A stretch of 64,000 nt of DNA from Taiwanofungus camphoratus (Eukaryota; Basidiomycota; Agaricomycetes; Polyporales; Taiwanofungaceae). The position numbers were made by a program, and so were the translations under genes. Shown piece by piece: positions 41,394-51,507 of the stretch (its first letter is position 1; each line of letters opens with the position of its first letter). The DNA lies in assembly GCA_003999685.1 (NCBI GenBank), contig CP021223.1, forward strand, positions 1,302,001 through 1,366,000. Reading direction: 5' to 3'. The notes under the pieces are model-generated. The model saw only the letters and a program-made list of their open reading frames with translations, was not told the DNA's origin and did no database searches.

Positions 41394-43446
41394 ATGGCTG
41401 CCGTCGCCCGGAACCCACTGTCCATGCGACCCCAAACACAATTCCAGTCTACGACTCCTTCGCCGTTTCAAGCAACTGCCAGGAGGCTCTCTTCCGCGAA
41501 GCGTGCTCGGTCTCCAGAACCAGCGGTCGATGTCGACGTCTCCCAAAGTTCTAAGCGGTTCAAGCCGGTAGCCGAATCTCCTGCTCCAAATGCCCACCGC
41601 TCCTCCCGAGAGGAAGTCAGGAAGGATAGGGAACGTTTGCGAGAGAGACGGGAGCAAGATTTCAGAATCAAGTATACGCGTGCATTTCCAAACTGGGTCT
41701 TCTACTTCGACCTGGACACTTTCAACTCAGACATTGCAGCTATGAGGGATCGACTAGTATCAAGAGTGATGCAGATGGGGGCCGTACGTATTTCACGCTT
41801 CTTGATCTCTGTAGTGACGCTGAGTAAGAGACTATTCGTTGTCCTCCATCTCCGTCGTCTAGCACGTCGATGACTTCTTTTCTAAGGATATCACACACCT
41901 GATCACTCTGCAGGGTGAGGAAGCGAACAAGGAGAACATATCTCAACCTGTTCAATCTGCGAAAGCTACTACTTCACTGGGTAGCCCAATCAGGCTGAGG
42001 GGCCGGTAAGTTATAATCTACGCGATGCATGTGGCGTACTCATGTATATTGTCAAGGGCTGCCAATGATGCGCCAGGCGCTGCTTCCGAGAATCTTGTGA
42101 AGAAAGCGCTTGCATTTGATATCAAAGTTTGGAGCTTCGCCAAGCTCGAGAATATCCTTGACCGATGTCGTGCTCCAGCACCTCGCTTGACTGTAGGATC
42201 TACGAAGAATGCTCCTGTCGCCCGCGCCCCCGCAGCTGGGTCTAAGGAGCGCTCCCTTACGCGTTTGCTTGAGACAGAACGTTTGTATGGCACCACCGAG
42301 CGTGACCCTACCCAACGACGACATGGCTACACGTATTTCTCAAAAAATACGTATTTTGTGCTTGTTGAGGACATGCGGCAGGAACTGGCTACCATCGCTG
42401 CTCTGGAATACCCGATCACAAAAGGTCGAGATGGCAGGGACAAGGGCACGTGGCCAGTGCTGTATTGTCATCCAAGAGCGAGAGGCCCATTCATTCCGTA
42501 CGACGACAGGGAGGAGAGAAGGCGCGACAAGGCTGATAGGCTCGATCGTGAGAGGGAGCGAGAAATGTTGCGGAGAAAGGCTAGGATGAAGGAAGAAGAA
42601 CGAAGATGGAGAACTCTGCAAGCTCACCTGCAGGCCAAGCAGCATGACCTGCGGCGATCCGTCTCAATGAACAACCTGCAGCGCCGTGCGACATATCCTG
42701 ACCCTGGTCTAGAAGGTTATGTTGATTTGGACGCGGACACGGGCGAAGTGGAGTCTGCGAACTGCTCCGGATACCTTGCGTCCGGAGCATACATGGCTGC
42801 GTCGGGCAACAGCGTCGGGGTCACATCGACCACAGGCACGACATCCGCTGCAGGAAATGGCTTCCGCAATCTACAACTGCCCACGGCCCTCAAGGGACGG
42901 TTGCAGCAGCAAGTCGTGACATCACGTAAGATTGTTCCCGTGGCAGGAGACAAGGAGAACAAGATGGGGCCACCACCTACAATCCCCCACAAGCCCAACG
43001 TCCTGAAGAAGAGCCGCAGTACGAATACTCTGAAATTGCCTGAACGGGAAGAAGGGCAAAAACCTGGGTACTGTGAGAGCTGCAGGGTGAAGTTCGAGGA
43101 CTTCGAAGAGGTAATTCTACTTTCTTTGACGCTCGTCTGTATCATTGACTGGCTCCTTATTTATGCTGCATTTTGTCTCTTACAGCACATTGAGGGTCGC
43201 CGACACCAAAAGTTCGCCATGGACGACTCCAATTTCGCCCAATTAGACGAGGTACTCTCTCGGGTAAGACGCCGTACTCTGCAGGAGGTTGAGGCAGAGA
43301 AGAGGAGTTGGGCATCGAGGTTCGATTCCGGCTATCAAGGAGAGGAGCAATTCGACGACGAAGACGCAACGATGCTGCCGATGCCCGACCCGACATTCGA
43401 GGACGATGTTCGATGGGACGACTGGGTTGACGCGGACGGAATGTGA
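41394..43446 (+). CDS. DBF4: Dbf4/Dfp1-type regulatory subunit of Cdc7 kinase
   Basis: Activates Cdc7 to fire replication origins. Start MAAVARNPLSMRP, with a disordered head. BRCT-like motif N: NWVFYFDLDTFNSDIAAMRD, then after an intron HVDDFFSKDITHLITLQGEE, and VKKALAFDIKVWSFAKLENI. Motif M region: TWPVLYCHPRARGPFIPYDD. Motif C zinc finger: PGYCESCRVKFEDFEE joined across an intron (about 43110-43185) to HIEGRRHQKFA, giving the Cx2C...Hx5H pattern that defines Dbf4 proteins. KEN motifs occur at ANKENISQ and GDKENKM. A charged coiled-coil insert (DREREREMLRRKARMKEEER) lies between motifs M and C. Three introns. The acidic tail ends DDWVDADGM. Confidence 0.93.
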
Positions 43447-43851
43447 CGTAAGTTATGAGTATCCTATCCAGGACTGTGACGCTGCACCGCATACCTCCAT
43501 CTGTTCCTGTTCTTTTACTGTCTGTCACATCAAGAACTCGGATTGCTCATCGCATACATGTTCGTCTCTCAATACTGCATCATATGGTCCGCACATGCAT
43601 GTTTGTCCATCTTGTTTTACATTGTATCATACCACACACCACGACATGTCAAATCCACACTTATACCTAATACAATTGCATATCATGTTTAGTTCAATCA
43701 AGGTACCCTTCACGTTTCCCTCGCTCTAGTTTCTTGTTGAGATGTATTACATGGTATGTCAACAAGTACAAGCGAGGTGTGAGCATCGAAGAAGGATGAA
43801 GTACATTGGGGATCGTCGGTACGTGGTCACGGGTATCGTATAGATGAGGGA
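43447..43851. other. Convergent 3' intergenic
   Basis: It holds the 3' UTRs of DBF4 (+) and the secreted protein gene (-). Nothing else seen. Confidence 0.4.
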
Positions 43852-46827: not shown

Positions 46828-48468
46828 ATGGCGGATTCACCTGACGGAACAGAGTCGGTGGCCGACTCGGGCGATGATGCTCAACTCACTATTCGGATTC
46901 CCAACCCCAAGGCTTTCATGGCCCGTCAATCACAATGGAAAGGTCGGAGAGGAAAGCCGCGGTGTGACCATTGTCGTCTGAACAACTTGAAGGTTAGTCA
47001 ATCCTTGTCTGCTACGACGGTGAGTCCTGAATTCAGCCAAGTGCGACCGAGTCCTCCCAACTTGCAACCACTGTGCTTGGCCGAATGGAAGAGAATGTAA
47101 GTATACGCCCTTGCCAACACCTGCTCACCGTGGCATACCTCGTTGTGATCGGTGTCGACTGAAGAATCTCAAAGTAAGTTTTAAACGCCAACAATTCAAC
47201 GACTTTCTGAATTTTACTTGATAACCAGTGCGATCGAAATCTGCCGGTATGCAATCATTGTGCAGAAGACAAAGAGCCCGACTGCAATTACACCCCGAAA
47301 AAGAGACACAAAGTTCCTTCGGACCATGCAGGAACTCGAGATAGGCCTGTTGCACCATATGCAGCGAAGACTGCGTCTTTCCTTGTCTCTGACATGCCTT
47401 CGCAGGGTGGTGGACAGGGCTCTCCGGAAGGTGGCACCACCAGTGGATCCTCAGGCAATCATGTCTTCGAGAGTGAACTACGAACAGAACCCCAGATCAA
47501 GCAATATATTCCTCCTCACTCGCCACTCTTGCCCATGGACGAAGAGGACATGCAGGATTCGGAGGTGGCCGTTCAGCAAGTAGGTGCGGATGGCTCCGTC
47601 ACGTGGGTCCGCAAAGTCGTGCTATCGTCTCTAGCTCCGAAGCACGCATCTGGCAGCCAAAACACTCCGTCGTCGTATAATCGCCCTTTTCTCCTCGACC
47701 AAGGGATGATCGTGACCACACCGCATATTGACCCGTGGACACACCCGGCGTTCGCGCCTCTGCCTGAGGTGATCATCCAGACCCTGCGCTCTGTGAATGC
47801 TATAGAGATGCCGTCTCGACATGCGTTTGACGAGGCTCTCATCCGCTTCGTGGGCGGGCTCTCTACGGAACTTCGGGAGACTGCAACGTTCATTCTGGAT
47901 GCGTATGCTGACATCGCGCACGCGGTGTCGGAAGGCCTCATATCAGAGCTGTCTCCTCGGTTGCAAATGTGGGCGACTTGCCACCATGCACGTTCCGGCT
48001 CGCGGAAGCACCATCTGATTTTGCTCCCCCGAGATGCTTATTATAACATGAACCGGGCCGACGAAGAGAAATTCCGGGCAAATTATGTTGTCCTGACTGA
48101 CGGGGAGGGAGAACTCACCAGCACAGACCAATTTTTGGAGAACAACCTGACTCCTCTGGAAGCGACGGCGGTTTTCGAACGCGTTCCTGTTCAAAGTCAA
48201 ATATATGATATTTTGGTTTACACACATAGGAATCATGGATCATCGTCTACCATGCTTTTCGAAGCCAGGCGAATTGGTATTGTGAGTACGCTCTTTGGTT
48301 AGGCCTGGCCTTTACTGATTCCTCTCGTCCTAGGCTACTATCACTTGGCCCATGGTGGAGATATTCATCCGGCTTTGCCCGCTCTGCAAGTTGCGCTCGA
48401 AAAGCACACCTCGCGTCCCCCCTGAACAAGATTCGGCGTCATTCCGACCCCCAATATCGAAACGTTGA
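46828..48468 (+). CDS. Regulator with two tandem Zn2Cys6 binuclear clusters
   Basis: A fungal zinc-cluster protein. Exon 1 (46828-46992) ends in the first half-cluster, CDHCRLNNLK. Exon 2 (47042-47173) supplies CDRVLPTCNHC...C to finish it, then a linker TPLPTPAHRGIPR and a second half-cluster CDRCRLKNLK. Exon 3 from 47229 completes the second (CDRNLPVCNHC...C) and ends in the basic TPKKRHK. Cys positions are 46, 49, 56, 63, 66, 74 and 90, 93, 100, 107, 110, 118: twice the Cx2Cx6Cx6Cx2Cx7C pattern. Both introns fall just before the third Cys. The rest is a Ser/Pro-rich stretch and a C-terminal globular part (SGSRKHHLILLPRDAYYNM, NYVVLTDGEGELTSTDQFLE, YDILVYTHRNHGSS). The last intron (48282-48333) leads to ATITWPMVEIFI. 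No standard fungal regulatory middle domain is evident. Confidence 0.85.
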
Positions 48469-49845: not shown

Positions 49846-51507
49846 TCATGATCGAAGTTCGAACGTGGCAAATGCAAGATCATATCCGCCGAACTCGTAG
49901 TTGATCTTGTCCGTCCGCCTGTACAACCCGCCGAACTCAACGGGGTTCGCCTCCGAGCTACCCGTCGAGCCAGTTCGTCCACAGGGCAGCGTTAACGCAG
50001 CTTTGAACGCCCGCTGGGCGGCTTCGACGGCGCTCTCGCCGTCCTCCTCCTCCGCGCTATTGTTGTGCTCGCTCGAGACGAACAGCGTTAGCGTCAATTT
50101 TCCCGGCCGGAAGATATTGACGACGCGCCGGATGAGCGTCTTCAGGTCGGGGATGCTCCGTGGCTGTGTGGGAAGGGTAGGAAGGGGCACGTTGCATTCG
50201 AAACTGGCATAGGACCAGCCGGATTCAGGCGTAACATGGATGGTATAGTAGCCTTCGCCGTTGCGGGCTGGATCCTTGCCAGCGCTATCACGCCACTTGA
50301 GAAGGGCATTACACGAGTAGCCGCAAGGACAGAAGGAATAGGCGTCGAGGGTGGTTAGATGTGGTGGGAATAATTCAAATATACCAAGCGAAGACGATAA
50401 TGCGGTGGCTTGGGCGGAGGGGTTAACCTCAGAAGCTTCAGATGTGAATGAATTAGTCATGAAAGGCTGGCAAGCCTCGGGAGATAAGTGAGTCATGAGA
50501 ATTTCGATAGTGTAGTCTTGTGTAGTATCGTCTACCGAGTCGGGCAACTCTGCTTCATCGTTCAGCTCAGGGGTAGATAGTGCATTATCGAGAGGAGTGC
50601 TTGCTCTCGTTCCTCCACCTGAACTGCCGTCGCCAGGACTAGTTAGATAAAGCAGCCAATGGTCCCCATTGACCTTGCCTACGGTGTAAGCCGCACCATT
50701 TGGGAAGATCTGATCCAGAAATTCGATTTCTGCTCTCCATTCTCTGTGGGGCCCAATTTGTCGCTCGGGAAACATGAAGGCCTTGCGCGAATAGAAACAG
50801 CGGTAGACAGACGGAAGGGAGGCATATTCCCGAGCAATTTCCAGAATTCGTGGGACCCCCAGAAGATTCAGTGTTGTACCACATGTTTTAAGGATGAGTC
50901 GGTGAGGAGAGACAAAGAAGGATGATTCACTAGATTAACCACAAGAGCATTAGTTACAGCCCTTTTGAACTATGTAATGACTAATGATATCGAAGCCCGC
51001 ATGTAAGTGTTCTGCACTATCGGAAAAAGGCATGCACTTTGCCACATCTCGGTCAAGTCGATGCATCACGCTGCGCGGATCTTCCGGGCATGAATAACCT
51101 AATACAGGTCCGACGGACGAAGTCGAAGGCATGGGTCGATTGGGTAGATGCAAAGCGACAAACAAAAGCGGTGAATTGTGCACGGTATGAATGAGTTGTA
51201 GAGCATAGGTGATGCAAACACACGATGCGAAGTATGCGCCGCTTCGACCTGTAACCGATCTCGATACTTGTACTCACCTTAGTAGGTACGCATCGGTTTC
51301 CATGCCTTCTACCACCGAGAGTATTTTGCACTTCACAATGTCGAGCATGTGTGCCCAGACGTCCCTGGGGACTTTTCTGAGACCGTACTTGCCATCAGTG
51401 CTTGTCGAAGCTCCGGGCACGTCTGCGGAGGATGGCTGGAACCAGATCTCAAGTAGCTTCTCCGGTCCTTCGAAAGGTCCTGTTGGCTGATCTCCACCGC
51501 TGGCCAT
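49846..51507 (-). CDS. SPE2: S-adenosylmethionine decarboxylase proenzyme
   Basis: Makes decarboxylated AdoMet for spermidine and spermine synthesis. Exon 1 (51278-51507, MASGGDQPTGPFEGPEKLLE) ends DAYLL plus two bases. Exon 2 (49846-50929) begins with the self-processing site SESSFFVSPHRLILKTCGTT. The two exons sum to 1314 nt, exactly 438 codons. Cleavage between Glu78 and Ser79 would give the beta chain and the pyruvoyl-Ser alpha chain. Further family blocks: YSRKAFMFPERQIGPHREW, EIEFLDQIFPNGAAYTVGKV, NGDHWLLYLT, LDAYSFCPCGYSCNAL (processing Cys), EGYYTIHVTPESGWSYASFE. The C-terminal extension ends FATFELRS. The single intron is 348 nt, far longer than its neighbours, and cuts through the active-site Ser77 codon. 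Divergent from the FAM210 gene (284 bp). Confidence 0.94.

Follow-up and report, generated by a model that had tools for sequence, protein, structure and literature searches.

Two intron-split zinc clusters in tandem in one predicted regulator of Taiwanofungus camphoratus

The analysed stretch of DNA (the window, 64,000 nucleotides of a Taiwanofungus camphoratus contig) contains on its + strand a gene, 46828 to 48468, for a zinc-cluster protein of 494 residues, the splicing of which is predicted from sequence. Zinc-cluster modules of this type usually occur once per regulator; here there are two. The model starts at the ATG at 46828 and has three introns, with every feature on the + strand. 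Exon 1 (46828..46992, residues 1-55) encodes the N-terminus together with the first half of cluster 1. It is followed by intron 1 (46993..47041, 49 nt, GTTAGT...AAG, phase 0), which lies directly before the third cysteine of that cluster. Exon 2 (47042..47173, 132 nt, phase 0/0, residues 56-99) completes cluster 1 and continues through a linker into the first half of cluster 2; behind it, intron 2 (47174..47228, 55 nt, GTAAGT...CAG, phase 0) lies directly before the third cysteine of cluster 2. Exon 3 (47229..48281, residues 100-450) completes cluster 2 and encodes most of the C-terminal region; after intron 3 (48282..48333, 52 nt), exon 4 (48334..48468, residues 451-494) ends with the stop codon at 48468. 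The first-pass annotation had joined the exons at 46992/47042 and 47173/47229, and both joins agree with the predicted splice sites, each intron being in phase 0. The neighbouring features include an S-adenosylmethionine decarboxylase gene downstream on the opposite strand (window 49846-50934, - strand, PF01536, 272.9 bits) and part of a DBF zinc finger gene (window about 43050-43450, + strand, PF07535, 79.4 bits for a piece joined by eye).

Both clusters are complete when read from the spliced protein. Cluster 1 (46963..47098 with intron 1, + strand) has its cysteines at residues 46, 49, 56, 63, 66 and 74, and cluster 2 (47144..47285 with intron 2, + strand) at residues 90, 93, 100, 107, 110 and 118. 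The spacing is Cx2Cx6Cx6Cx2Cx7C in each, the linker is of 15 residues (75-89), and an intron falls directly before the third cysteine in both, all as had been proposed. Both also fit the motif C-x2-C-x6-C-x5-12-C-x2-C-x6-8-C, a range quoted in PMC7295025. The Zn_clus profile search suggested in the first-pass annotation matched two stretches of the spliced protein (34.7 bits, E 1.9e-8). Each half scores on its own, cluster 1 at 25.2 bits (E 1.7e-5) and cluster 2 at 24.3 bits (E 3.3e-5), against a cut-off of 21; since the whole protein and each half pass it, the clusters are more than chance resemblances. An open protein with two complete clusters places the predicted gene in the two-cluster Zn2Cys6 class, and from family membership each cluster most likely folds around two zinc ions.

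Besides Zn_clus, the whole protein has no Pfam match up to E 1, and three C-terminal pieces (231, 129 and 55 residues) have none up to E 10. Folding the part encoded by 47700-48281 as a single sequence gave a mean pLDDT of 44.4, which is uninformative. Exon 3, which encodes 351 of the 494 residues, has no relative in the viral and prokaryotic collections viral_contigs and genome_contigs; the scans gave 1 and 23 pattern matches, respectively, none of them confirmed. Residues 432-468 (48230-48468) show an H-x2-H-x29-C-x2-C arrangement with a WP, reminiscent of the zinc-binding domain of integrases. A retroelement integrase H2C2 domain was nevertheless rejected for these residues: no Pfam family matches them up to E 10, and in pairwise comparison with eight integrase segments every score was reached by 46 to 125 of 500 shuffles. 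Integrase H2C2 domains are themselves abundant in the genome (at least 150 matches scored, of 362 candidates), which suggests that it contains many LTR retroelements.

How did the pair arise? The two clusters are identical at 18 of 22 core positions (13 of 17 when cysteines are excluded), as against 12 of 22 (7 of 17) for the best sibling cluster of the same genome among 16 rows compared, one of which is a copy of another. A second set of 16 siblings, drawn from 26 genome matches, again had 12 as its best value; the ten matches left out of it were one identical copy and nine more, several of which had a different C3-C4 spacing or an unread intron. The gap between 18 and 12 indicates that one cluster was copied from the other within the gene. 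Across the wider duplicated unit 25 of 37 residues agree, and the same codon is retained at seven of those 25. The nonsynonymous distance between the copies (dN) is 0.28 by NG86, with dS saturated and not computable, or 0.23 by maximum likelihood, with a dS of 12.6. Synonymous sites are thus saturated while protein change is limited, from which it follows that the copy is old and that the protein sequence of both copies has been constrained. An intragenic duplication of the intron-bearing cluster is accordingly supported, in so far as sequence comparison can speak to it; the duplicated segment would have begun a little way upstream of the cluster, included the splitting intron and ended with the cluster. 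Because the intron is in phase 0 in both copies, the exon between them is symmetric.

The first-pass annotation had taken the matching introns as a sign that the unit was duplicated together with its intron. The duplication is borne out by the similarity of the clusters (18/22), but the matching intron position is by itself no proof, as a survey of the genome made clear. With E values allowed up to 10, the Zn_clus search gave at least 50 matches, a lower bound since genes match exon by exon and the studied gene is itself absent from the list. A scan of 48 loci, in which all 50 matches were included with flanks of about 1 kb, recognised a cluster in at least 22 of the 48; this too is a lower bound, because known clusters such as that of L018 escaped the strict filter on motif and donor. 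A predicted phase 0 intron directly before the third cysteine also occurs in L018, L026 and L038, in none of which was a second cluster found within about 1 kb on either side. In L023 and L027 the predicted intron lies one codon earlier, and a predicted phase 1 intron after Cx2CR splits three clusters in L015 and one each in L019 and L043. Introns inside zinc clusters, all of them predicted, thus appear common in this genome. The same-place introns in L018, L026 and L038 make the shared position a family trait in this genome and weaker evidence of duplication; clusters 1 and 2 have inherited their common predicted intron position from the family.

The two-cluster gene seems to be single-copy in its genome: the four matches found there at E up to 1 each correspond to one of its own exons. 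The scan did, however, reveal a second two-cluster Zn2Cys6 gene, at L015 (L015:837-4728 in G000:C7:1239000-1246000, + strand), the one locus in which two or more clusters were found among the clusters recognised. Its matches at C7:1243052-1243141 and 1243662-1243736 are the lone pair less than 1 kb apart on one strand among the matches listed. As in the studied gene, two clusters stand in one frame, both split by predicted introns at an identical codon and phase, and a symmetric exon lies between them; this single open exon of 558 nt would, if skipped, likewise leave one six-cysteine hybrid cluster. The L015 gene differs in having its introns in phase 1 after Cx2CR and a linker of 158 rather than 15 residues. 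A third, similar split cluster lies 3 kb upstream of the L015 pair on the same strand, and each member of the pair is closer to it (15/22) than to its partner, so that at L015 a fusion of tandem gene copies is the likelier origin. Two genes in one genome with intron-matched doubled clusters suggest that an intron within the cluster eases doubling, because a symmetric exon results when an intron-split unit is duplicated. Elsewhere in the genome, Zn_clus matches at C9:227184-227294 and C9:246651-246761, 19 kb apart, have equal scores and the same matched residues, which suggests a recent duplication.

A symmetric exon between two half clusters raises the question of splicing. Eleven combinations of donors and acceptors were enumerated, of which four stay in frame to the normal stop. 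Among these, one only has two clusters, the form of 494 residues. Two others, of 470 and 459 residues, are without a cluster, and the fourth lacks exon 2. Since exon 2 is in phase 0/0, skipping it leaves an open protein of 450 residues with one six-cysteine hybrid cluster of the same Cx2Cx6Cx6Cx2Cx7C spacing, a form that the first-pass annotation had not taken into account, and the gene could in this way yield both a two-site and a one-site regulator. We consider such a switch quite unlikely, however: the hybrid cluster, at 20.0 bits, falls just below the Zn_clus cut-off of 21; a 236-nt intron would have to be removed in place of introns of 49 and 55 nt; the symmetric exon is the automatic outcome of duplicating an intron-split unit; and exon skipping is rare in fungi. 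Retention of intron 2 brings a stop after 114 residues and leaves cluster 1 alone. We also observed a perfect GTAAGT within exon 2 (47097-47102, in the codons of Cys74-Lys-Tyr), which, if paired with the CAG acceptor that precedes intron 1's AAG by five bases, would define an in-frame exon lacking any cluster.

Lys18 of Gal4 contacts the guanines of CGG (PMC5559640, in part), and the same lysine is described as a base contact in PMC4025492 (in part). Its equivalent is Asn in both clusters here, giving R-x2-N-x-K between Cys2 and Cys3 in place of R-x2-K-x-K, a pattern that is usual in PF00172 although not strictly defining. At this position 26 genome matches (22 read by script and four by eye, with duplicates and three clusters of one locus among them) have 22 Lys, three Gln, one Arg and no Asn. 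Asn in some yeast members is noted in the accessible part of PMC4025492. The equivalent of Gal4 Lys17 is Asn in cluster 1 and is retained as Lys in cluster 2. With Asn at both Lys18 equivalents, and at the Lys17 equivalent of cluster 1 as well, the bases read may be other than CGG, or cluster 1 may read them weakly, which counts against one chain reading two CGG half-sites.

Could DNA be read by one cluster only, the likeliest being cluster 2, with the other left by the duplication as a structural or protein-contacting remnant? The lysine kept by cluster 2, where cluster 1 has Asn at both positions, points that way, as do the structural matches: in every whole-protein PDB match with E below 0.05 (Ppr1, Gal4, Lac9 and the Rsc3 and Rsc30 subunits) the best-aligned stretch is cluster 2, the top match being Ppr1 (1pyi, E 4.5e-5), and Cep3, the next (0.056), lies over cluster 1. 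When cluster 2 was searched alone, Rsc30 and Ppr1 were about equal. Cluster 1, however, retains all six cysteines and scores slightly above cluster 2 against Pfam (25.2 versus 24.3 bits), and protein change between the clusters is limited despite the saturated synonymous sites, and we regard a single reading cluster as unlikely.

The reading we prefer, to which we give a probability of about one half, is that the protein is a single-chain bivalent DNA binder. Predicted normal splicing would give a single chain in which 15 residues separate two intact clusters; each cluster would dock on a short half-site, and the chain would need no coiled-coil dimerisation of the Gal4 kind. The whole protein has no Fungal_trans (PF04082) match up to E 1, and the stretch behind cluster 2 is rich in Pro and Gly (13 within residues 119-170); these two features make one chain on two half-sites the most likely mode. 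Fungal_trans is not a required companion, since it is present in 43 of 66 zinc-cluster proteins of Pleurotus ostreatus (PMC7295025, in part). Monomer binding by single zinc-cluster chains is mentioned, with reference to AlcR, in the accessible parts of PMC5559640 and PMC4025492. The first-pass suggestion that one chain could read two CGG half-sites is a reasonable one, the Asn residues being borne in mind.

Most zinc-cluster proteins are nonetheless described as dimers (PMC5559640, in part), and a Gal4-like dimer, paired by a C-terminal helix and placing four clusters on a composite site, has to be weighed. In a crude count of heptads, made without a null model, the best stretch within residues 119-290 had five of eight a/d positions filled and one near residues 306-334 had seven of eight. 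The latter would allow dimerisation via the C-terminal part, but it lies far from the clusters, and the linking region behind cluster 2 is Pro/Gly-rich; we regard the dimer as unlikely. Combining the bivalent single-chain reading with exon 2 splicing into a one-site hybrid reader, both forms having Asn-variant base recognition, gives a scheme that we hold to be very improbable. If the single-chain reading is true, the gene offers a natural route to paired-site binding that needs no dimer partner, and makes it possible to test directly how a short linker, in place of a coiled coil, sets site spacing; otherwise it is an ordinary, tidy internal domain duplication.

Proteins with two zinc clusters are a kind already known, with published examples in Tolypocladium, Cordyceps and Pleurotus. 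The literature search, which reached few subscription papers, turned up no comparable pair that is both closely spaced and intron-split; 'two zn' is absent from PMC5415576, and 'two zn' and 'tandem' are absent from PMC3998117. The accessible parts of PMC3731814, PMC4192604, PMC12997857 and PMC10512309 contain chance phrase matches. An Alternaria regulator with two Zn2Cys6 domains is cited in PMC10305253 (in part). CCG_02279 of Tolypocladium guangdongense and CCM_00582 of Cordyceps militaris have, like the studied protein, two Zn2Cys6 domains in one predicted chain (PMC6471507, in part), but with C3-C4 spacings of 5 and of 6 where those here are equal; the same source describes them where it deals with DUF3468 proteins, and gives neither linker lengths nor introns in that part, whereas our protein has no DUF3468 match in Pfam. 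PoZCP55 of P. ostreatus is likewise a mushroom protein with two zinc clusters, although these are C-terminal and accompany three septin domains (PMC7295025, in part). Pho7 of Schizosaccharomyces pombe has Asn299 at the Gal4 Lys18 position, as in both clusters here, but has one cluster; its sites contain a single CGG, which it needs, and binding as a monomer is one of the two possibilities put forward (PMC5559640, in part). The solved chains of Gal4 (1aw6, 1d66, 3coq) align to each cluster of the studied protein. Compared with the Gal4-type members of PF00172 (Gal4, Ppr1, Lac9), the chain has two clusters, a 15-residue linker and Asn at the Lys18 position in both, without a Fungal_trans match or, in the crude heptad count, an obvious coiled coil right behind cluster 2. 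What distinguishes the gene from the known two-cluster proteins is that its pair is close, equally spaced and intron-split.
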